Assembly: GCF_014190875.1 (NCBI RefSeq)
Contig: NZ_JACHVS010000001.1
Location: 2,666,001 to 2,730,000, forward strand
Direction: 5' to 3'
DNA from: Paeniglutamicibacter cryotolerans
Lineage (GTDB): Bacteria; Actinomycetota; Actinomycetes; Actinomycetales; Micrococcaceae
DNA: 64,000 bases
In this document: positions 12,391 to 22,235 of the stretch, piece after piece
Layout: every line of letters begins with the position of its first letter
Numbering within the stretch: position 1 is the stretch's first letter
Program-made: the position numbers and the translations under genes
Notes under the pieces: generated by a model
The model's database searches: none
What the model saw: only the letters and a program-made list of their open reading frames with translations
What the model was told of the DNA's origin: nothing

Positions 12391-12759
12391 CTAGAGCAGC
12401 AAGGCCAGGCCAGCTCCGGCGAATGCAGCGAGTACACCGGCCGCCATAGTTCCCAGGGCATTGATCAAGGCTAGCGTGGTCCTTCGCGATTGAATTAGCC
12501 TTACGGTTTCAACACTGGCGGTGCTGAACGTGGTGTACCCGCCCAACAATCCGGTTCCGAGAATCAGGGCAACGGTTGGGGTGAGACAATGGAGCGCGCC
12601 AAGCCCCGTAACGAAACCGAGAAGTACCGATCCCGAGACATTGATGAGTATCGTTCCTACTGGGAGCGCTGTACGGAACCTTGCCCTCACCAATCCGTCG
12701 ATCATGAAACGGAGCCCGGCGCCGAGCCCGCCAGCGAGAGCGAGCAGCAGGACGGTCAT
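12391..12759 (-). CDS. crcB: Fluoride channel FluC/CrcB (second copy)
   Basis: This 122-residue protein has four membrane helices and the family marks GGLGAGLRF, NVSGSVLLG (pore asparagine) and GLLGGYTTFST. Fluc proteins export fluoride as dual-topology dimers; actinobacteria often carry two adjacent unequal copies that may form a heterodimer. It overlaps the upstream crcB as ATGA and is the last gene of the minus-strand fluoride locus. Confidence 0.93.
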   Translation of the reverse strand: MTVLLLALAGGLGAGLRFMIDGLVRARFRTALPVGTILINVSGSVLLGFVTGLGALHCLTPTVALILGTGLLGGYTTFSTASVETVRLIQSRRTTLALINALGTMAAGVLAAFAGAGLALLL

Positions 12760-13301
12760 TGCTGCCCCCGACTTAAGCCCAGCGGATCGACGTCATGGCC
12801 GGGGGGCTGACGATATTGCCTCGCGGCAGCCCAGATTCCGACGAAAGCAGCTCCGGTTCCTAGAAGGAGGCTTGCTCCGAGATACAGAAAAGCCACTAGC
12901 CCGCGGCCAGCATCAAATAAATGCATGGCATCTACGGACAGGCTGCTGTAGGTGGTGAATGCTCCCATGAAGCCGGTGCCCACCAGCAGACGGAGGAAAC
13001 GTCGTCGTCCCGTATCCGGGCCTCGTCGGACCAGGCCCTCGAGTAGTACGCCCAAGAGAAAGGCACCGAAAACGTTGATGATCAAGGTCGGAACGGGCCA
13101 ACCGTACGGGGCTGGCAGGAGTAATTCCAAACCGTAGCGGGCAGATGCGCCGAAACAACCGCCTGCCATGACCAGCAAAACATAGCCGGGATGCAGATGG
13201 ATGGGGCGTTGGGGCGGGACCGTGAGAGCGACGTCAATTTCTCTCGGGAGGTGTTCCCGGTCCGGGCCAGGGTCCGCGGGAGAAGGCTTGCCCTGTTCCA
13301 T
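12756..13301 (-). CDS. crcB: Fluoride channel FluC/CrcB (first copy)
   Basis: This 181-residue protein starts at ATG 13301, overlapping the usp stop by one base; a TTG three bases earlier is also possible. A polar N-terminal extension of about 40 residues precedes the four-helix Fluc core, which has GGCFGASARYGLE, the pore motif NVFGAFLLG and GFMGAFTTYSS. It is coupled to the second copy and lies downstream of the disrupted enolase and fluoride riboswitch. Confidence 0.93.
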   Translation of the reverse strand: MEQGKPSPADPGPDREHLPREIDVALTVPPQRPIHLHPGYVLLVMAGGCFGASARYGLELLLPAPYGWPVPTLIINVFGAFLLGVLLEGLVRRGPDTGRRRFLRLLVGTGFMGAFTTYSSLSVDAMHLFDAGRGLVAFLYLGASLLLGTGAAFVGIWAAARQYRQPPGHDVDPLGLSRGQQ

Positions 13302-13834
13302 CAAAGCCGCTCATGCTCCGGTTGCGGGTCCAGCGGGACGATCATCACCGGACGGGCCTGGTGGTGGGCAAGATGCACGGCAACGGAACCCATTACGAGT
13401 TCCTCCAGTAACGCTTCAACCCCGCGTTCGCGGGTGCCCACGAGGATCACGGACGCCTGGACCCTATCCGCCAGGCGGTTCAGGGAACGAGCGGGTTCTC
13501 CAGCCTCCGAAACCAAGGCCCAGTCGATGGCAGTGCCTGCCAGCTCGACGTCGATCCTTTGGCGGAGTAGCCCTATAAGGCGATCGCCATCGCCGGGCTC
13601 ATCGATCCCATCGGGGTCGATGAGGGCCGAAGTATCACCCTTCTCTTTCACGAGATAGCGGCTGGCATCCACATAGACGAAGACGATGCCAACGTTCAGC
13701 CCGCTGGCAAGCGCTGCACAGTGGCGAACGACGGCGAGCGGCTGACCCGGCATTATCCCCGCGACAATGGGGCCGGTCATCGGCAGTACACGGGATATTC
13801 CTGCTGTCTCGGGAGGAAGCGGGTGCTGTGTCAT
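13301..13834 (-). CDS. Universal stress protein family (UspA domain)
   Basis: This 177-residue protein starts at ATG 13834 behind GAGAGGAAG. The frame continues upstream to 14035, but that part translates as the C-terminus of enolase and belongs to the pseudogene. The Usp fold is shown by GPIVAGIMPG at the N-terminus and the nucleotide-loop pattern VGTRERG...MGSVA..LAHHQARPVMIVP at the C-terminus. Usp genes are known companions of fluoride riboswitches and crcB. It is coupled to the downstream crcB pair. Confidence 0.85.
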   Translation of the reverse strand: MTQHPLPPETAGISRVLPMTGPIVAGIMPGQPLAVVRHCAALASGLNVGIVFVYVDASRYLVKEKGDTSALIDPDGIDEPGDGDRLIGLLRQRIDVELAGTAIDWALVSEAGEPARSLNRLADRVQASVILVGTRERGVEALLEELVMGSVAVHLAHHQARPVMIVPLDPQPEHERL

Positions 13835-14238
13835 GGATTCCACTTCCTCTCGGGCAGCAGGGGAAGCCCCTCGGGGAGTCCGGGCCTGCCACTGGCCATT
13901 GCCAATGGGTCGATTATACTTGGCCACGCGTTCTCTGCGGGCCGGATCCCCGGAATTGAGATGGGAGCAACCGGATTCAACCACCAGATCCGCAATGACA
14001 TTGTTTGTGCTTTCCCCGGATCGGTGCGAAACCATCGCGACGGATCTGCCAGTCAGAGCTAAACCAAGCTATCGACTATCTGGCTCAAACTGCCTGCCGG
14101 ACTTAGCTTGAGCAAAACGGATATTGCCGAAGTATCTCTCTCGTCAACAGCGATTGGTTCCGCTAGAGAAAAGAACTCGTCCTCGCTGATTAGTTGTTCG
14201 GCTGCACCCAAGGATGTGACCATGCCCATCCAGAAGGT

Positions 14239-14245
14239 CGCCTCG
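14239..14245. repeat. Target-site duplication, left copy (CGCCTCG)
   Basis: This 7-bp copy of the host target abuts the left end of the IS21 element and is identical to 16907-16913. Confidence 0.93.
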
Positions 14246-14313
14246 TGTTTAGACGGAGCTTTTGGTAGCACGTGCGTAACGATCCGGTAGCACGCGTGTA
14301 AGCAACCGGTAGC
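14246..14313 (+). repeat. Left terminal repeat region of the IS21 element
   Basis: The outer inverted repeat TGTTTAGACGGAGC is followed by GGTAGC at 14264, 14286 and 14308, an exact 22-bp period. Such multiple terminal repeats are transposase-binding sites in IS21 elements. Confidence 0.9.
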
Positions 14314-14390
14314 GCTTCGGGACGTTCAAAGTCAGGATTGCTTTCACCCACGACACCAGGTCGGGGACAGTGAAAGGAAGACTGACGGTA

Positions 14391-16043
14391 ATGGCTGACT
14401 ACAGACACATCATGGCCCTGCTGGTGCAGGGCCATTCGTACCGACAGGTCCAAGGCAGGGCAGGCTGCTCGCACCGCACGATCGCCAAGGCCAGCCGGGT
14501 CCTTGCCGATCAAAAGCTGACCACCCGTGAGCAGATCGACGCGCTCACCGATGAGGACCTCGACCGGCTGTTCGACGACGGCCGCAAGGCCGTGAGCGGT
14601 GAGTTCGTCCCCGTCAATGTCGAGGCCGTGGTGAAGGCACGCATCGGTCGGAAGAAGCCACCGTTGAAAGTCTTGTGGGCCCGCTACCTGGACACCGCGC
14701 ACACAGACTCCGCCCGGTTTTACGGCTATGAGCGGTTCTGCCAGATTATTGCCGAGCACGTCAAGGTCAACGACCTGACCAGCCCGCTGTCCCACGAACC
14801 CGGACACACGATGCAGGTCGACTGGGCCGGCACCAAGATGCAGCTGACCGATCCGATCACCCAGGAAACCACGAAGGTCTCGCTCTTCGTGGCGTCCTTA
14901 CCGTATTCGGGAATGATCTTCGCCTACGGGTCCCTGGATGAGAAGCTTCCCGCCTGGTGCCAGCTGCACCGGAAGGCCTTTGAATACTTTGAGGGTGTCA
15001 GCCAGCTGGTCATTCCCGATAACGCCTCGACCGCATCGAACCAGATCAGCCGGTATGAAAAGGCCCGGGATGTGAACCAATCCTATGAGGCCTTCCTTGA
15101 GTACTATCAAACCGCGGCAGTCCCGACCGGCGCGTATAAGCCGCAGGAGAAAGGCAACGTCGAGGCGGGGGTTAAGGTCTCGACCAATTGGATCATCCAC
15201 TACCTGCAGGGGCGGCGTTTCGCGGGTCTGGATGAGCTGAACGAGGCCGTGGCCGAACAGGTGGAGATGATCAATGACCGCACGCCCTTTCGCGGGGAGA
15301 ACCGCTCCCGACGCGATTGGTTCCAGGATGCTGAACGCCACGAACTCATCGGCCTCCCGGCCGAGCCGTGGCAGCAGGTTTACTGGCGCAAGGCGAAAGT
15401 CTCCAGGGACTGGCACGTGCAGGTCGACACGGTTAAATATTCGGTTCCGCACCAGCTCGCCGGGCAGATCCTGGACGTGCGGATCGTGGGTGAGCAGGTC
15501 ACCGTGCTTGCCGGTGGGCTCGTGGTTGCTTCGCACCGGCGTGGTGCGCAGCGTCATTCCTACGTCACCGATCCCGAACATGCGCCGCACGGGTATGAGG
15601 ACATCTCACTGCTCTGGACCCGTGCCTATTTCATCCGGCAAGCAACAAAGGTCGGCCCCTACACGGTTCAGGCGCTGGCTCGGTTGCTGGATCGGAAAAA
15701 GATCGAAGCGCAGGGCTACCGCTCCTGCATGAACATCCTGGCACTGGGCAAGGGCAACAACCGCGCCCTGCTGGAGCAGGCCTGCCATGACCTCTGCGTG
15801 CAAGACGAGCGGAACCCTGTCAGTTATACCGCGCTCAAACATCGCATCACCGCCCTGCGGGCGGCCTACGCCGGGCGTCCGGGCGTGAGCGCACCGGCAT
15901 CGCCGCAGTCCGGCGCGGGGCCGGTGACCGCGGGTGCCAGGGATACCAGCAGCGCCCATCTGGGCGGGATCTCGCAGTTCAGTCTCGAGGCCTTGAGAAG
16001 CACCGCCGCAACCGAGGAAACGAAGGAGGAGGACCATGCTTGA
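14391..16043 (+). CDS. istA: IS21-family transposase IstA
   Basis: This 550-residue DDE transposase starts at ATG 14391; GTG 14370 is an alternative. The N-terminal helix-turn-helix (GHSYRQVQGRAGCSHRTIAKA) binds the ends. The rve catalytic core has Asp144 (MQVDWAGTK), Asp210 (VIPDNAS) and Glu258 (EKGNVEAGVK). A C-terminal Mu-type beta domain follows (VDTVKYSVPHQL). All catalytic residues are present and the frame is unbroken. It overlaps istB by 8 bp. Confidence 0.95.
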   Translation: MADYRHIMALLVQGHSYRQVQGRAGCSHRTIAKASRVLADQKLTTREQIDALTDEDLDRLFDDGRKAVSGEFVPVNVEAVVKARIGRKKPPLKVLWARYLDTAHTDSARFYGYERFCQIIAEHVKVNDLTSPLSHEPGHTMQVDWAGTKMQLTDPITQETTKVSLFVASLPYSGMIFAYGSLDEKLPAWCQLHRKAFEYFEGVSQLVIPDNASTASNQISRYEKARDVNQSYEAFLEYYQTAAVPTGAYKPQEKGNVEAGVKVSTNWIIHYLQGRRFAGLDELNEAVAEQVEMINDRTPFRGENRSRRDWFQDAERHELIGLPAEPWQQVYWRKAKVSRDWHVQVDTVKYSVPHQLAGQILDVRIVGEQVTVLAGGLVVASHRRGAQRHSYVTDPEHAPHGYEDISLLWTRAYFIRQATKVGPYTVQALARLLDRKKIEAQGYRSCMNILALGKGNNRALLEQACHDLCVQDERNPVSYTALKHRITALRAAYAGRPGVSAPASPQSGAGPVTAGARDTSSAHLGGISQFSLEALRSTAATEETKEEDHA

Positions 16044-16809
16044 TCATCATCTGACCGACGATGACATGGGGCTGTTTACCGGGTTGCGGATGACAGCGTT
16101 CGGCCAAAGCGTCATCGACATCGCCAACGACTCGGCCTATGACGAATGGACGTTTTCGCGCAAGGTCCGTCATGCACTGGATCAGGAGATCGCGGCCCGG
16201 GCCCAGCGTCGGGTGGTGAAGCTGCTCAAGGAATCGAAAACGCCGAACCCTGCTGCCTGTGTTGAAGACATCCACTACCTGCCGGACCGGAGCCTGAACC
16301 GGGAGGTCGTGGCACGGCTCGCGTCCTGCCAGTGGATCGAGCACACCACGAACCTGGTGATCCTGGGCAAATCAAGCGTCGGCAAATCGTATTTGGCCCA
16401 AGCCCTGGTCAACGCGGCCTGCCGGCACGACTACACGGCTCGCTACTTCCGACTTGATGACCTGGCGAACAAGCTCGCGGTTTATCGTCGGGGTGATGCC
16501 GAACGGCTGACGTTCCTGGGCAGCCTGCACGACTGCGATGTTCTGGTCCTGGATGACTTCTTGACCACGCCGATTAGCCCGGAGACCGCGAGCGAACTGC
16601 TCAATATCCTGGCGGGGCGCGAACACCGTGGCGCCACGGTGGTGACTTCTCAGTTCGATCCCGAGGACTGGTACAAGTCGCTGCATGATGCGGTGATCGC
16701 CGAATCGATCCTCAACCGCATCGTTTCCAGCAGTGAGTTGGTCCAGCTTGATGGGCCCAATATGCGTCGGCGTAAGCATACGGGTCCGGGAGATGAGCCG
16801 GTGAGCTGA
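16036..16809 (+). CDS. istB: IS21-family AAA+ helper ATPase IstB
   Basis: This 257-residue AAA+ ATPase of the DnaC/IstB type selects target DNA and stimulates IstA. Walker A GKSSVGKS has its lysine at residue 117; Walker B VLVLDDF has Asp173-Asp174; a sensor-type TSQFDPEDWY follows. It starts at ATG 16036 behind GGAGGA, within the end of istA, so translation is coupled. Confidence 0.95.
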   Translation: MLDHHLTDDDMGLFTGLRMTAFGQSVIDIANDSAYDEWTFSRKVRHALDQEIAARAQRRVVKLLKESKTPNPAACVEDIHYLPDRSLNREVVARLASCQWIEHTTNLVILGKSSVGKSYLAQALVNAACRHDYTARYFRLDDLANKLAVYRRGDAERLTFLGSLHDCDVLVLDDFLTTPISPETASELLNILAGREHRGATVVTSQFDPEDWYKSLHDAVIAESILNRIVSSSELVQLDGPNMRRRKHTGPGDEPVS

Positions 16810-16838
16810 AGCGATCGGTGCTGGCGCGAGGGCTCGGT

Positions 16839-16906
16839 GCTACCGGGTCCTCGCACCGGTGCTACCGTTTCGCTCCACATGCGCTACCGAAAGCTCCGTC
16901 TATACA
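16839..16906 (-). repeat. Right terminal repeat region of the IS21 element
   Basis: GCTACC (inverted GGTAGC) occurs at 16839, 16861 and 16883, again a 22-bp period, followed by the outer inverted repeat ending TATACA at 16906. Confidence 0.9.
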
Positions 16907-16913
16907 CGCCTCG
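16907..16913. repeat. Target-site duplication, right copy (CGCCTCG)
   Basis: This copy is identical to 14239-14245 and directly follows the terminal CA of the element. Confidence 0.93.
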
Positions 16914-17723
16914 TTTCGGCCATGGGATCTACGAGGTTTCGAATTGGGTGGTCATCCCGACATTTCCTGGGGGAGGCGACCAGCTCGACCAGGCGATGGA
17001 AATGTCTATTGAAAAGATGCTCTCCGAGCTCGAAGAATGAGTTGGCGACCGGTTCTGCGGCTCGGTCCATGCGCGATGTGCCAGATTGCAGTCCAATGGC
17101 TTCGGTTGCCTCGCCGCTCAGGTCTAAGACACTCTTCAGCGTCGGAACGCTTAGGTGCGTCCTCGCCATCAGTGGCCAAACCGATGTTGAATCCTCAGCT
17201 GCCGGGGACTGGCGTCGTGAACGCGACAAATCTCCATGCACCATTCAAGCGTTTGCGGATATGTATCTGCACCGACTGGAGCGATCATGAATTCTTGGAG
17301 GGCCCAGGCTCGACTGTATGCGCTCCGCCGGTGCTGAGATTAAATGCGGTACGGTAATTAGCCTCGGGCTGCCAGCTGATCGCAAGATCCACGTTTGTGC
17401 TTCCAGCCCGGACTGATTCTTGATCCCATCCGAGAAGCGTAGCGCGCTGCCCAGAGGCTCTTGTACGGACCAAGGGCGTTAGCATGGCAAGGTTCCGATC
17501 CCGTCCGCTACCCCAGCCAATGTCTCTGCACCCCCTGCCCCGGCCATGCAGGTCCGTCGTCACACAGATTCTTGGCTTCCGGGACACCGGTGGAGCCTCC
17601 CTCGGGGACCGAGCGGTCGAACACGAGCCCGCCGATGGAGTGGAGCTTGACCTGAAGGGTCGGAAATCCACGGGAATCAAGGATCGGCCAGGCGCTGACA
17701 GGGAAGAGACTAAGTTCGCTCAT

Positions 17724-18001
17724 CGTCTGCTCCTGATTGCTTGGTTGGCGATGGAGGCGTTGAAGAAACGGGTGAGCGGTATACCAGCGTGAACGTGAAT
17801 CCGCGGCTCTCCGCAGGCTGGCAGGTTCGTGGTGCAGTTTCTAGGCGGCCGGTGCACTGGTTGGGGGAATACGAGCGGCGAGCCGTGGGGAAACTGCGCG
17901 GATATGTTCTGCATCGGCCGTTGAAAGGATCGGGAACTTCATTATCGATTGAACCGGTGGCGTGGATCTTAGAATGACAAACATACCTCCCATCAAGTAA
18001 A
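17724..18001 (-). other. Leader between the fluoride riboswitch and the enolase start; no convincing gene
   Basis: The 278 bp between the aptamer and ATG 17723 contain one small minus-strand frame (17993 to 17841, 50 codons), but its start lacks a properly spaced ribosome-binding site and its product is unlike anything recognised. It may be a lost small gene or simply leader. No clear terminator hairpin with a T run was found after the aptamer, so the mode of control is open. Confidence 0.4.
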
Positions 18002-18066
18002 GGCAGGAACCATTAGCCGAAAAGGCGGTTCGGGCCACGAGCGGCTCCGGTGGGATCCATCACCTC
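18002..18066 (-). promoter_or_regulatory. Fluoride riboswitch (crcB RNA motif)
   Basis: On the minus strand, GGTGATGGATCCCACC forms the first hairpin with the conserved GATG in its loop side. Further on, AACCGCC, a TTTT loop and CGGCTAATGGTTCCTGCC complete the motif. The parts correspond to the crcB consensus: hairpin with GATG, AAcCGCC...GGCTgATGg, and a 3' TCCT segment. Loop GGATCC can pair with GGTTCC (one mismatch) as the pseudoknot. The main deviation is CTAATG for the commoner CTGATG. It precedes enolase, usp and two crcB genes, all known members of this regulon. Free fluoride would favour expression. Confidence 0.82.
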
Positions 18067-18143
18067 TATTGACAGTACAGTCTCTGGCAGCTGGCACGAT
18101 CGATGATGGCGGAACTATCAGCAAAGACCACCAACCAGGCTCA

Positions 18144-18776
18144 TCAGGGTCGTATTGGCTCGGTTCCGACCACCCATAGGGCCTGGCGGATTTCCGGGTC
18201 TAGGCCCGGGGCAGTTGTATCTATGGTGCTGCCCGGAGCGATGCCTGCGGCAAGGCATTGGCGAAGTGCTTGGGGGGCGGCATCGTTGATCCGCACCACC
18301 ATCACGAGGCCTGCTGCTGCGCGGTCGAGCCTGATCGCTGTTCGGTGTTCCATGGAGCCGTCGGCTGCGGGGATCGGATCCCCATGCGGGTCGGCGGTGG
18401 GGAACCCTAGGCGCTCCTCGAGCCTGCGCACGAATTGCTCGGAGACCGCGTGTTCGATCCGCTCCGCCTCGTCGTGGACCTCATCCCAGCCGTAGCCGAG
18501 CTCGTTGACCAAGAACGTCTCCACCAGCCGGTGTCGGCGGACAACCGATAGAGCCGCATCGAGCCCGAGGGCGGTGAGCGTCACTGCGCCGTAGGGCGGG
18601 TGCACCAGGAGGCCCTTGCCCACGAGCTTGCGCACCATCATAGTGACCGAGGCGGGGGCGAGCTCTAATTTCACCGCCAACGCGCCAGTGGTCACCGGAG
18701 TGTCTTCCCATTCTGTGAGCCCGTACACGGTCTTGAGGTAGTCCTCCTCGCTGCTGCTCAGTCGATCGGGACTCAT
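18144..18776 (-). CDS. DtxR/MntR-family metal-dependent repressor
   Basis: This 210-residue protein has an N-terminal winged helix (SEEDYLKTVYGL... TTGALAVKLELAPASVTMMVRKL), a dimerisation and metal-binding region (RRHRLVETFLVNELGYGWDEVHDEAERIEHAVSE) and a C-terminal FeoA/SH3-like domain, the full DtxR layout. With Mn or Fe bound, such proteins repress uptake genes. It overlaps the upstream permease gene by 4 bp and is cotranscribed with the ABC importer it most likely controls; a matching palindrome lies at 21337-21354. Confidence 0.9.
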   Translation of the reverse strand: MSPDRLSSSEEDYLKTVYGLTEWEDTPVTTGALAVKLELAPASVTMMVRKLVGKGLLVHPPYGAVTLTALGLDAALSVVRRHRLVETFLVNELGYGWDEVHDEAERIEHAVSEQFVRRLEERLGFPTADPHGDPIPAADGSMEHRTAIRLDRAAAGLVMVVRINDAAPQALRQCLAAGIAPGSTIDTTAPGLDPEIRQALWVVGTEPIRP

Positions 18777-19675
18777 GAGCTCACCCCCATTGTTGTCCGA
18801 ACTGCTGCCGCTGTGTCTGCTGCGGCCTGCCTGCGCCGACGTATCACTGCCGCGACTCTACCCTCGCGTGGGGCGAACAGATAGGCGAGCAGGAAGAATC
18901 CGGCCTGGGTCAGCACCACCGAGGCTCCGGTGGACAGGTCAAGGTGGTAGCTGGCGTAGATGCCGATGACTGCCGCGCCGCAGCCGAGCCCGGCTGAGAT
19001 CAGCAGCATCTTGTTGAAGGAGCGAGTCAGTAGGAATGCCGTCGCACCGGGGGTAATCAGCATCGCCACGACCAGGATGATGCCCATGGCCTGCAGGCTC
19101 GCCACGACGGTGAGGGCCAGGAGCCCTAGCAGGATCGCGTTCAAGGCCCGTGCGTTGAGCCCGATGGCGTGTGCATGGACCGGGTCGAAGGCCAGCAGAG
19201 TGAGGTCCTTGCGCAGATAGAGCACGGTGCCCAACGTGATGGCGCCGAGCACCAGCACCTGGATCAGTTCCGGGCCGCCGGCACCGAGCACGTTGCCGAA
19301 GAGGATATGGCCCAGATCGACCTGTGATGGGGTCTTGGCGACGATGGCCAGACCGAGCGCGAAGAGCGTGGTAAACACGATCCCGGTCACTGTGTCGGGT
19401 TTCAGCGAGGTGGTGGAGCGCAGCGAGCCGATCAGGTAGACGGCGCCGAGCCCGAAGACCAGTGCGCCGACGGTAAAGGGCAGTCCGGCCAGGTAGGACA
19501 GCGCCACGCCCGGCAGTACCGCATGGGAGATCGCGTCACCCATCAGCGACCATCCCATGAGCACCAGCCAACAGGAGAGCACCGAGCAGACCAACGCAGC
19601 GGCGAGCGTGACCAGCAGGGCGTTGGTCATGAAGCCGTAGCCGAAGGGCTCGGTCAGGAAATCGATCGGGTTCAC
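18773..19675 (-). CDS. Metal ABC transporter permease (manganese type)
   Basis: The start was set at GTG 19675, 3 bp after the ATPase stop; the open frame further upstream lies within the ATPase gene. The 300-residue product has 8-9 hydrophobic helices and the ABC-3 family pattern, including GWSLMGDAISHAVLPGVALSY and DPVHAHAIGL. It forms the membrane channel of a Mn/Fe/Zn importer. The family alone does not fix the metal; the partner binding protein and DtxR regulator favour Mn. Confidence 0.9.
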   Translation of the reverse strand: MNPIDFLTEPFGYGFMTNALLVTLAAALVCSVLSCWLVLMGWSLMGDAISHAVLPGVALSYLAGLPFTVGALVFGLGAVYLIGSLRSTTSLKPDTVTGIVFTTLFALGLAIVAKTPSQVDLGHILFGNVLGAGGPELIQVLVLGAITLGTVLYLRKDLTLLAFDPVHAHAIGLNARALNAILLGLLALTVVASLQAMGIILVVAMLITPGATAFLLTRSFNKMLLISAGLGCGAAVIGIYASYHLDLSTGASVVLTQAGFFLLAYLFAPREGRVAAVIRRRRQAAADTAAAVRTTMGVSS

Positions 19676-19677
19676 GG

Positions 19678-20424
19678 CTACCGCGTTTCGCTCGGCGCAT
19701 GGCCGAAGGTGAGGGCCAGGTTGGCGTCGGTGAGGACCGCGGCTGGGGCGCCGGAGGCCAACACCCGACGGTGCAGCAGCAGTGCGCTGCTGCACAGCCG
19801 CGGGACCTGGGCCAGGTCGTGGGTGGAGATCAGGATGGTGGTGCCGGTCCGGTTCAGTTCCCGCAACTGGTCGGTGATCAGTTGTTCGGAGCCGATATCC
19901 ACCCCGGCGAAGGGCTCGTCGAGCAGCATCAGCTTCGCGCCCTGGGCGATGCCGCGGGCGACGAACGCGCGCTTCTTCTGCCCGCCGGAGAGCTCGCCGA
20001 TCTGACGGTGGGCCAGGGCTGTGAGGTCAACGCGTTCGAGCGCCTCGGCCACGGCTGCCTTGTCCGCGTGGCCCGGGCGGCGGGTGCGGCCCATATAGCC
20101 GTAGCGGCCCATCATCACCACCTCGCGCACGCTCACCGGGAAGGTCCAGTCCACGGCCTCGGCCTGTGGCACGTAGCCCAGAAGTCCGAGCTTGCGGGCT
20201 GCTGCGGGGGAGTGGCCGAAGAGCCGCACGCTGCCGCTGCTGGGCGCCTGGAGGCCCATGATCGACTTGAACAGCGTCGATTTGCCGCTGCCGTTGACTC
20301 CGATCAGTCCGCAGAGTTCACCGCCGGCCAGCTCATAGTCGATTCGCTCCAGCGCGGTGTTCCCGCCGTAGCGCACGGTGAGCCCGGTGATGGTGATGGC
20401 ATCGTTTGCGCGGTCAGTCCGCAT
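19678..20424 (-). CDS. Metal ABC transporter ATPase (manganese type)
   Basis: This 248-residue ATPase has Walker A GVNGSGKST, signature LSGGQKKR and Walker B LMLLDEPFAGVD. The stretch VPQAEAVDWTFPVSV with VVMMGRYGYMG is typical of the MntB/SitB branch of the family. It overlaps the end of the binding-protein gene by 11 bp and is followed 3 bp later by the permease. Confidence 0.92.
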   Translation of the reverse strand: MRTDRANDAITITGLTVRYGGNTALERIDYELAGGELCGLIGVNGSGKSTLFKSIMGLQAPSSGSVRLFGHSPAAARKLGLLGYVPQAEAVDWTFPVSVREVVMMGRYGYMGRTRRPGHADKAAVAEALERVDLTALAHRQIGELSGGQKKRAFVARGIAQGAKLMLLDEPFAGVDIGSEQLITDQLRELNRTGTTILISTHDLAQVPRLCSSALLLHRRVLASGAPAAVLTDANLALTFGHAPSETR

Positions 20425-21346
20425 GGCGCTGGCCTTCCAGGATGAGGTTGAGGTCGTAATCGATCAGCTCCAGGAATGTCGGGACCGGCCCGTCGGGCCC
20501 CGAAAGCGAGTCGACGTAGAGTGGGCCACGCAGCGGTACCCCGGTGGCCTCTGCGACGCGTTGCTGCGCTCCGGGGTTGATCGTGGATTCGCAGAACAGC
20601 GCCGCTGGTCGAAGCCGGGTGACGAAGTCGATCTGGGTGCGGATCTGCCGGGGTGTCCCTTCCGAGTCGGAGTTCACCGGCCACAGGAAGCTTTCTTTCA
20701 GGCCCAGGTCACGGGCCAGGTAGGAGAAAGCCCCCTCGCAGGTGGCCAATGTCGGTTCGGGCACCGTGGCCAGGGCCGCGCGGGCGTCGTCGAGCATGAG
20801 TTGCAGCTTGGCGTTGGTGGCCGCGGCGCGGCCGGCGAAGTAGTCGGCTTCCCGGGGCAGCAGTGCGCTGAGGGCATCGCGGGCGTTGAGCACGTATTGC
20901 TGGGAGGCGACGGGAGACATCCATGCGTGCGGGTTGGGCCTGCCGGTGTAGGTGCCGGAGCCGATGTCGGCTGGTTCGATGCCGGCCGAGAGCACCGCAT
21001 GCGGGGCATCCAGGCCCCTGACGAACGGTTCGAACCAGCGCTCGAGCCCCAAGCCGTTGTCCAGCACCAGGTCGGCCTCGTGAACCCGAACCAGGTCCGA
21101 GGGGGTGGGCTCGTAGCCGTGGATCTCCGTGCCGGGTTTGGTGATCGAGACGACCTCGACCTTCTCCCCGCCGACCTCGCGGACCAGATCGGCCAGCACG
21201 CTGAAGGTGGTCAGTACCACGGGCTTCTCCCCGCTCGCTGCCATGGGGCCGGGGGAGGCGCAGCTGGCCAGCGCCATGGCGGCGCAGGCGGCGAGCAGCG
21301 CGGGCTTCAGCGGGCGTCGTCGTTGACCGCCCAAGAATTTAGGCAT
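20414..21346 (-). CDS. Manganese-type metal-binding lipoprotein of an ABC importer
   Basis: This 310-residue cluster A-I solute-binding lipoprotein has a signal ending in lipobox LASC (Cys29). Metal ligands by family position are His76 (EIHGYEP), His140 (NPHAWM), Glu204 (CEGAFSY) and Asp279 (VDSLSG). The H-H-E-D set is that of Mn/Fe proteins such as PsaA and MntC, and there is no His-rich loop as in Zn proteins. The start at ATG 21346 lies inside an 18-bp palindrome; the frame is open further upstream, but that part contains the hairpin at 21378. First gene of a four-gene operon ending in the DtxR regulator. Confidence 0.9.
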   Translation of the reverse strand: MPKFLGGQRRRPLKPALLAACAAMALASCASPGPMAASGEKPVVLTTFSVLADLVREVGGEKVEVVSITKPGTEIHGYEPTPSDLVRVHEADLVLDNGLGLERWFEPFVRGLDAPHAVLSAGIEPADIGSGTYTGRPNPHAWMSPVASQQYVLNARDALSALLPREADYFAGRAAATNAKLQLMLDDARAALATVPEPTLATCEGAFSYLARDLGLKESFLWPVNSDSEGTPRQIRTQIDFVTRLRPAALFCESTINPGAQQRVAEATGVPLRGPLYVDSLSGPDGPVPTFLELIDYDLNLILEGQRHAD

Positions 21347-21354
21347 GGCTAAAT
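21337..21354 (-). promoter_or_regulatory. Palindromic operator, DtxR/MntR type, over the start codon
   Basis: ATTTAGGCATGGCTAAAT is a near-perfect inverted repeat (ATTTAG-N6-CTAAAT) like the TTTAGG...CCTAAA sites of Mn-sensing DtxR proteins. It includes the start codon (21344-21346) of the binding-protein gene, so a bound repressor could block a leaderless or short-leader transcript. Confidence 0.65.
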
Positions 21355-21377
21355 AGTGCTGCACGGGGTGCCAAAAC

Positions 21378-21419
21378 GCAAATGCCGGTCCCGGAAAAGA
21401 ATCCGGGACCGGCATTTGC
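21378..21419 (-). terminator. Long hairpin after hisN, probable terminator
   Basis: A perfect 17-bp stem (21378-21394 with 21403-21419) with an 8-nt loop lies between the hisN stop and the metal-transport operon. It reads out of hisN on the minus strand; the T run after it is weak (GTTTTGG). Confidence 0.7.
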
Positions 21420-21437
21420 CGTGGACGGTTGCGCGGA

Positions 21438-22235
21438 TCAGCCGCCGTTGAAGATCTGAAGCACCGCGTCGTGCAGCAGTGAGTTGCTGGCCAGCGCATT
21501 GCCGCCGTCGCAGCCCTCAATGCCCTCGACCGAGGTGAAACGCCCGCCGGCCTCGCGTACGATCGGGACCAGCGCCGCCATGTCGTAGAGGTTCAGTTCG
21601 GGTTCGGCGGCGATATCCACCGCGCCTTCGGCGAGAAGGCAATACGACCAGAAGTCGCCGTAGGCGCGCGTGCGCCAGACCTTCTCGTGCAGCTCGAGCA
21701 TGTCATCGAGTTGCCCGCGTTCCTTCCAGCCTCCGAGGCTGGAATAGGATACCGAGGCGTCGGCCAGCTCGGAGACTCCGGAGACGCGCAGCCGGGTCGC
21801 CGCGGCCATCGACTTGCCGGTGTACGCGCCCATGTCCTTGGCGGCCCACCAGCGCTTTCCTAGAGCCGGTGCGGAAACGAGCCCTACCACCGGCTCGCCG
21901 TCGTCGATCAGCGCGATCAGCGTCGCCCAGACCGGCACGCCGCGGACGAAGTTCTTGGTGCCGTCGATCGGGTCGATCACCCAGCGCCGGGTGCCATGCC
22001 CGGTGCTGCCGAACTCCTCGCCGAATACGGCGTCGCGGGGCCGGGCGCGGGAGAGATGCGAGCGGATCGACCGTTCGGCGGCACGGTCCGCGTCGGTGAC
22101 CGGGCTCAGGTCCGGCTTGGTGTCGACCTGCAGGTCCACGGCCTTGAACCGGGACATCGTCAGGTCATCGACCGAATCGGCGATGACGTGGGCCAGTCGC
22201 AGATCGTCGTTATAGGTCATTGCGTCGTTGCTCAT
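21438..22235 (-). CDS. hisN: Histidinol-phosphatase, inositol-monophosphatase family
   Basis: This 265-residue enzyme has the metal-binding marks FGEEFG, WVIDPIDGTKNFVRG and LNLYDMAALVPIVREAGG of the inositol monophosphatase superfamily. The VPVWATLIAL and PELNLYDMAA variants resemble the actinobacterial HisN group that dephosphorylates L-histidinol phosphate in histidine synthesis. ATG 22235 (MSNDAM) was chosen over 22262. Substrate assignment rests on resemblance; a plain inositol monophosphatase is the alternative. It follows rsgA by 63 bp on the same strand. Confidence 0.85.
   Translation of the reverse strand: MSNDAMTYNDDLRLAHVIADSVDDLTMSRFKAVDLQVDTKPDLSPVTDADRAAERSIRSHLSRARPRDAVFGEEFGSTGHGTRRWVIDPIDGTKNFVRGVPVWATLIALIDDGEPVVGLVSAPALGKRWWAAKDMGAYTGKSMAAATRLRVSGVSELADASVSYSSLGGWKERGQLDDMLELHEKVWRTRAYGDFWSYCLLAEGAVDIAAEPELNLYDMAALVPIVREAGGRFTSVEGIEGCDGGNALASNSLLHDAVLQIFNGG

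Follow-up and report, generated by a model that had tools for sequence, protein, structure and literature searches.

A probable remnant of a riboswitch-controlled fluoride-resistance operon in Paeniglutamicibacter cryotolerans

The genome of Paeniglutamicibacter cryotolerans carries within a stretch of 64,000 nucleotides (hereafter the window) a locus at positions 12391–18073 in which a fluoride riboswitch, the pieces of an enolase gene (eno), a universal stress protein gene (usp) and two genes for Fluc fluoride channel subunits (crcB1 and crcB2) are found. On the minus strand the order is RF01734 aptamer, enolase N-terminal piece, enolase C-terminal piece, usp, crcB1 and crcB2. The question raised by this arrangement is whether these elements once formed one operon and, if so, how it came apart. 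We read the locus, with a probability of about 0.85, as a fluoride-resistance operon of an already known type that is in decay. It appears to be the remnant of a riboswitch-gpm-eno-usp-crcB-crcB operon and not an intact member: the complete set on one strand is not present, gpm being undetectable and eno being a pseudogene, and descent from such an operon is indicated by the enolase pieces, the gene order and the sister relation to the intact operon of Arthrobacter psychrochitiniphilus GP3 (locus L120).

Elements of the locus

The first-pass annotation of this DNA had proposed a crcB-type fluoride aptamer at the head of the locus, and a covariance-model run bore this out: RF01734 matched positions 17997–18073 of the minus strand with 42.6 bits (E 1.9e-8) over the full model (1–64), above the gathering score of 34. 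The whole set had also been placed on one strand, which holds for the aptamer, enolase, usp and crcB genes and fails for istA and istB, the genes of an insertion sequence (IS), which lie on the plus strand.

The enolase was recognized from an N-terminal piece at 17508–17723 (PF03952, 2.8e-11) and from a C-terminal piece (PF00113, 8.5e-10) that shares one open frame (13301–14035, minus strand) with a domain of the Usp family (PF00582, 4.2e-10). Alignment to the L120 enolase gives a pseudogene in two parts, one on each side of the IS. The 5' part (16907–17723, minus strand; PF03952) covers about residues 1–292 of the intact operon enolase with at least five frame changes, its pieces corresponding to residues 1–67, 61–121, 134–149 (weak alone, E 0.26), 150–162, 164–198, 200–222 and 219–292; the 3' part (13910–14245, minus strand; Pfam Enolase_C) covers about residues 298–405 with one frame change, in pieces of residues 298–353 and 353–405. 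Against the intact operon enolase, the pieces upstream of the IS had an E value of 3e-37 and those on its downstream side one of 2e-20, as calculated by ungapped sum statistics on a two-piece database. The pieces are colinear over residues 1–405 and shift in frame from one to the next, so that no functional enolase, that is, no single open frame with catalytic residues, was found at the locus; the gene had rightly been called ruined. At the positions of the metal ligands and lysines of the active site, its motifs differ from those of the intact operon enolases. One intact enolase, the housekeeping copy, lies elsewhere in the genome (C1:2192888).

The usp gene (13301–13834; PF00582), crcB1 (12756–13304) and crcB2 (12391–12759), all on the minus strand, are open, with overlapping stops and starts: the usp stop overlaps the crcB1 start, and crcB1 overlaps crcB2 by 4 bases, in agreement with the universal stress protein and the two coupled crcB genes named at first. 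The adjacent channel genes matched PF02537 with 2.9e-23 (crcB2) and 3.8e-24 (crcB1), corresponding to 82.6 and 85.4 bits at a cut-off of 32.9, and are the only two matches to this family in the genome; crcB2 also matched TIGR00494 (84.5 bits, cut-off 80.45), and crcB1 did not reach the cut-off of any curated NCBIfam crcB model among the matches listed. The window Usp is 46–56% identical to ten operon Usp sequences, the values in the alignment itself running from 48 to 56%. The ratios of third- over first-plus-second-position codon changes relative to L120 were 1.13 for usp, 1.32 for crcB1 and 1.31 for crcB2, and, as controls, six comparisons of these genes in L120 with their counterparts in two other intact operons gave 1.05–1.31; usp and both crcB genes show codon-position patterns like those of intact relatives. 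The exporter genes are intact and presumably working.

Intact operons and the loss of the glycolytic half

A single-sequence Usp search of the genome contigs gave no relative; an alignment of 11 Usp sequences recovered 121 relatives in named genomes, 80 of which were kept. By tblastn, 41 of these loci held usp-crcB1-crcB2, 12 held gpm-eno-usp-crcB1-crcB2 (one with an extra weak istB-like match), 19 had usp alone at the threshold used, and 8 were mixed. The tree (68 loci, 408 columns) was built from the 59 named loci with all three proteins and nine others, the 21 named loci without detected usp, crcB1 or crcB2 being left out. Its loci carried neither gpm nor eno in 48 cases, both in 14, enolase alone in 3 and remnants in 3.

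A leader with the aptamer, followed by gpm, eno, usp, crcB1 and crcB2, all on the same strand and separated by short gaps, is present in 14 of the 68 compared loci, and because the relatives are so arranged, one former transcript would be the simplest reading of the window. The suggestion of a former single operon, now damaged, is upheld by these intact loci; neither did the aptamer fail to match its model, nor did the relatives indicate that it and the crcB genes had never shared a transcript. The nearest compared locus is the intact operon L120, sister to the window with support 100/98. Like it, the operons of A. cryoconiti (L121) and of the Arthrobacter plasmid pZXY21 (L226) have genes, order and strand as in the window, L120 being 55% identical to the window in usp, 63% in crcB1 and 74% in crcB2; they differ in that gpm and eno are intact, the leader hairpin is strong and no IS lies inside. 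The Micrococcales loci with usp-crcB1-crcB2 and without gpm-eno (41 of the 80 named) have the same export half as the window; they differ from it in that, at the threshold used, neither gpm nor eno could be traced in them.

The operon content first proposed, namely riboswitch, enolase, usp and crcB pair, stood in all these members and missed gpm, which in relatives sits between riboswitch and eno. It is open there in seven loci (L036, L037, L042, L044, L050, L055 and L116), and the L120 gene encodes a phosphoglycerate mutase (TIGR01258, 192.3 bits, cut-off 81.7). In the window this position is taken by a stretch of 273 bases from aptamer to eno start (17724–17996, minus strand). No gpm remnant above chance was found in it, 250 of 300 shuffles scoring equal or higher; for the N-terminal and C-terminal parts of gpm, 157 and 610 of 1000 shuffles, respectively, were as high or higher. 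First codons after the aptamer that by eye resembled a gpm start were rejected, as their score was no better than that of shuffles and two registers fit. Comparison with the relatives indicates that gpm formerly belonged to the set and was lost from the window without detectable remnant.

The two other remnants in the tree have a different form. In Arthrobacter sp. H-02-3 (L122) the leader precedes a short gpm start, after which comes an enolase C-terminus, a structure that amounts to one large deletion; in Arthrobacter sp. ISL-65 (L145) a longer gpm start runs into the enolase C-terminus, a deletion different from that of L122. After either deletion the distance from leader to usp is no more than about 600 bases. 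The three remnants stand at three places in the tree, where the starred branches force three changes, and the glycolytic half has been lost, with the export half kept, at least three times among the compared loci.

Several observations weigh against reading the locus as a decayed operon. The loss of gpm is supported by the relatives alone, with no remnant in the window, and the long end branch of the window (0.67) makes its exact place in the tree less sure. A promoter scan gave nothing convincing and none immediately before usp; by consensus, 3 promoter-like sites were detected against 1.8 expected, with models that omit some actinobacterial promoters. Finally, the codon-position ratios relative to L120 were 0.85 for the N-terminal and 2.07 for the C-terminal enolase piece, compared with 1.42 and 1.54 for intact enolase; the 3' piece looks more conserved than neutral, so that its decay is recent or partial.

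Chromosomal place, mobility and order of events

Within the genus, RF01734 was detected in 2 of 15 genomes, one of the two being an 88% complete metagenome-assembled genome, and in 27 of 295 sampled family genomes (19 above cut-off), under stricter filters with which weak matches are lost. Exactly two PF02537 matches were present in each of the 15 genus genomes. In 11 of the 14 genus relatives examined a crcB pair occupies the same chromosomal place without a riboswitch, its neighbours being dtxR, hisN, rsgA, aroA and a relative of the window's orf446; G001 and G003 have a usp-crcB-crcB set elsewhere in the genome, and the contig of G011 is too short for placement. Such a diverged pair beside dtxR would be expected if a genus-native crcB pair had come to adjoin an unrelated riboswitch and enolase fragment, without the three ever forming one unit. 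This is highly improbable, since the window usp and crcB genes are nearer to the operon versions of other genera (55–74% for L120) than to the genus pair (about 36–45% for crcB1), and the gene order matches that of intact operons. Two loci of another genus (L038 and L052) have leader-usp-crcB-crcB between smpB and dtxR-znuBCA-hisN, like the window's neighbourhood. Directly upstream of the window riboswitch, on the same strand, lie genes for a DtxR/MntR-like regulator and a metal ATP-binding cassette transporter (18144–21520, minus strand); the transporter is absent at this place in most genus relatives examined.

The fluoride operon can evidently move, because the conjugative plasmid pZXY21 of Arthrobacter sp. 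ZXY-2 carries it, with two leader matches. G011, which is placed in the genus of the window, does not share the window's branch in the operon tree; as to transfer or descent of the window copy, this placement fits transfer without proving it.

Some further features of the plasmid and its relatives were noted. Just before the operon, a Cys/His-rich protein of 289 amino acids (L226:2188-3057) has its own fluoride-riboswitch-type leader (L226:2092-2203, 56.7 bits); neither Pfam (E <= 1e-3) nor NCBIfam (E <= 1) returned a match for it, and it has 164 relatives at E <= 1e-3. Extra leader matches about 1 kb upstream of the main leader occur in L126, L127, L131, L132, L133, L135, L136, L140 and L145, the gene behind the extra leader having been examined in L226, L127 and L132. 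Enolase and Usp are joined on the plasmid in one open frame of 621 amino acids (L226:3980-5845; PF03952, PF00113, PF00582), unlike the 12 named chromosomal gpm+eno loci, in which the enolase frame stops before usp, and a major facilitator superfamily transporter gene (L226:6842-8074) overlaps the end of crcB2.

The element that divides the window enolase (14246–16906, plus strand, opposite to the operon) is 2661 bases long and belongs to the IS21 family. Its istA (14370–16043, plus strand) matched NF033546 with 208.8 bits (cut-off 160), and its istB (16036–16809, plus strand) matched PF01695 above cut-off (155.8 bits) and NF038214 below it (177.3, cut-off 200); the element ends were found, together with a perfect 7-bp target repeat, CGCCTCG, at 14239–14245 and 16907–16913. 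Besides this copy, four full-length ones at 100% identity and a split one are present in the genome, and a plasmid search with the IS as query gave one partial match over 12% of the query. The element is young, because the four other full copies are identical and the target repeats perfect. As frame changes lie on both sides of this young element, it is probably not the killer of the enolase, which was probably dead before the IS landed. The reverse order, in which the insertion came first and killed the operon and the frame changes followed, would account for the position of the IS within the enolase remnant and for the perfect target repeats. It is nevertheless quite unlikely, since the genome copies are 100% identical, yet the enolase shows several frame changes on one flank of the IS and a single one on the opposite flank, and gpm has been lost as well. 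The order that we prefer would be deletion of gpm, conversion of eno by frame changes into a pseudogene, and then insertion of the young IS21 element.

Leader control, enolase chemistry and the fate of the operon

In the relatives the 3' end of the aptamer is predicted to pair with the ribosome-binding site and start region, hiding both; binding of fluoride would stop this pairing and allow translation. A leader model (R1) built from 18 sequences, the window being one of these rows, scored 75.7 bits at 17969–18073 in the window. The consensus fold of the 18 rows is a 13-pair stem in two parts, in which one pair occurs as A-U, G-U and G-C. The expression platform of the window (17969–17996, minus strand) has one C-U mismatch within this stem, and the predicted hairpin energy of the equivalent 50-base segment is -6.4 kcal/mol, compared with -11.2 to -18.9 kcal/mol in 17 relatives, one of which (L013) has a different predicted leader fold. 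The start-hiding hairpin is therefore predicted to be weakened in the window and the off-state to be weak. The leader model matched 41 of the 80 named loci. These include all 12 named loci with gpm and eno, in which the match overlaps the gpm start; several of the 12 are building rows of the model or sequence-identical to one. With L036 and L055, which also have the leader, a riboswitch-type leader precedes gpm in 14 of 14 such loci. The match lies between usp and crcB1, and not before usp, in the Cryobacterium loci and several Leifsonia loci.

By analogy with these relatives, the ancestral state would have been a single gpm-eno-usp-crcB1-crcB2 transcript under the fluoride riboswitch, in which additional phosphoglycerate mutase and enolase would sustain lower glycolysis and the Fluc pair would let fluoride out. 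The IS21 element now separates the riboswitch from usp-crcB1-crcB2, and these genes may be expressed from another promoter or by read-through. Leader and export genes could also still be one fluoride-controlled unit, coupled by read-through or by a promoter in the IS end. The conserved aptamer (42.6 bits) and the intact crcB genes are in keeping with this, and L122 and L145 suggest that coupling without gpm-eno is workable; this is unlikely for the window, where 2661 bases with genes opposing the operon strand intervene and the weakened hairpin predicts poor off-control.

Replacement of the fluoride target had been assigned to the enolase in the first-pass annotation. An extra enolase is indeed encoded by the operon; it is best read, from its motifs, as an enzyme of ordinary chemistry. 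The catalytic motifs were present in the eight intact operon enolase rows examined first, and each of 10 motif tests on 15 rows was passed by 14 or 15, most misses being harmless variants. A fluoride-insensitive enolase as the purpose of the operon was rejected on this ground, L132 excepted; second-shell effects may still play a part. The full-length operon enolase of L132 (Arthrobacter sp. ISL-48) has GDKGG where the others have GDEGG, at a catalytic position; it is possibly inactive, or a sequencing error. A quick tree separated nine housekeeping enolase rows from 16 others with a branch support of 100; a separate operon clade was treated as a hint only in view of the long branches and one wrongly framed row, the third copy of G204. 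A further enolase-like match of that genome (G204:C11:702465-703213; L224, L225) is spread over two frames; a sub-threshold match to RF01734 lies about 1.6 kb away, at 700744.

The kind of operon is already known. According to its description (PMC5533749), Enterobacter cloacae FRM carries on genomic island GI3 a ppaC-uspA-eno-gpmA-crcB-orf5249 operon under a fluoride riboswitch, which is induced by fluoride and was tested by knockout and complementation; eno and uspA transcripts rose 177-fold and 121-fold (Table 1 there). It shares with the Arthrobacter-type operon the upstream riboswitch and the usp, eno, gpm and crcB genes, and differs in having ppaC first and a single crcB, where the window's relatives have gpm-eno-usp-crcB1-crcB2; in the window, compared with this system, gpm is missing, and eno is disrupted by an IS as well as by frame changes. 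A 2024 review (PMC11139923) names raised enolase production as one bacterial answer to fluoride and enolase as frequent in riboswitch operons. A literature search by title and abstract start, with most subscription papers outside it, returned no description of this actinobacterial operon or its decay. The present locus adds its anatomy and the finding that the glycolytic half has been lost repeatedly.

The locus, whose state of decay is unusual, represents a degraded form of a system already described, and from it one can see which half of a fluoride defence made up of several genes survives operon decay. It may tentatively be proposed that the fluoride operon of soil actinobacteria splits at a fixed line, the fluoride-induced gpm-eno half being expendable and repeatedly lost and the Fluc pair with Usp being kept and able to escape riboswitch control as the sole, constitutive exit for fluoride. 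If this were true, continuous export would make the emergency enolase obsolete. If the loss of gpm-eno accompanies kept or unswitched export, the long-standing view that growth in fluoride is limited by inhibition of enolase would become testable across strains with and without gpm-eno.

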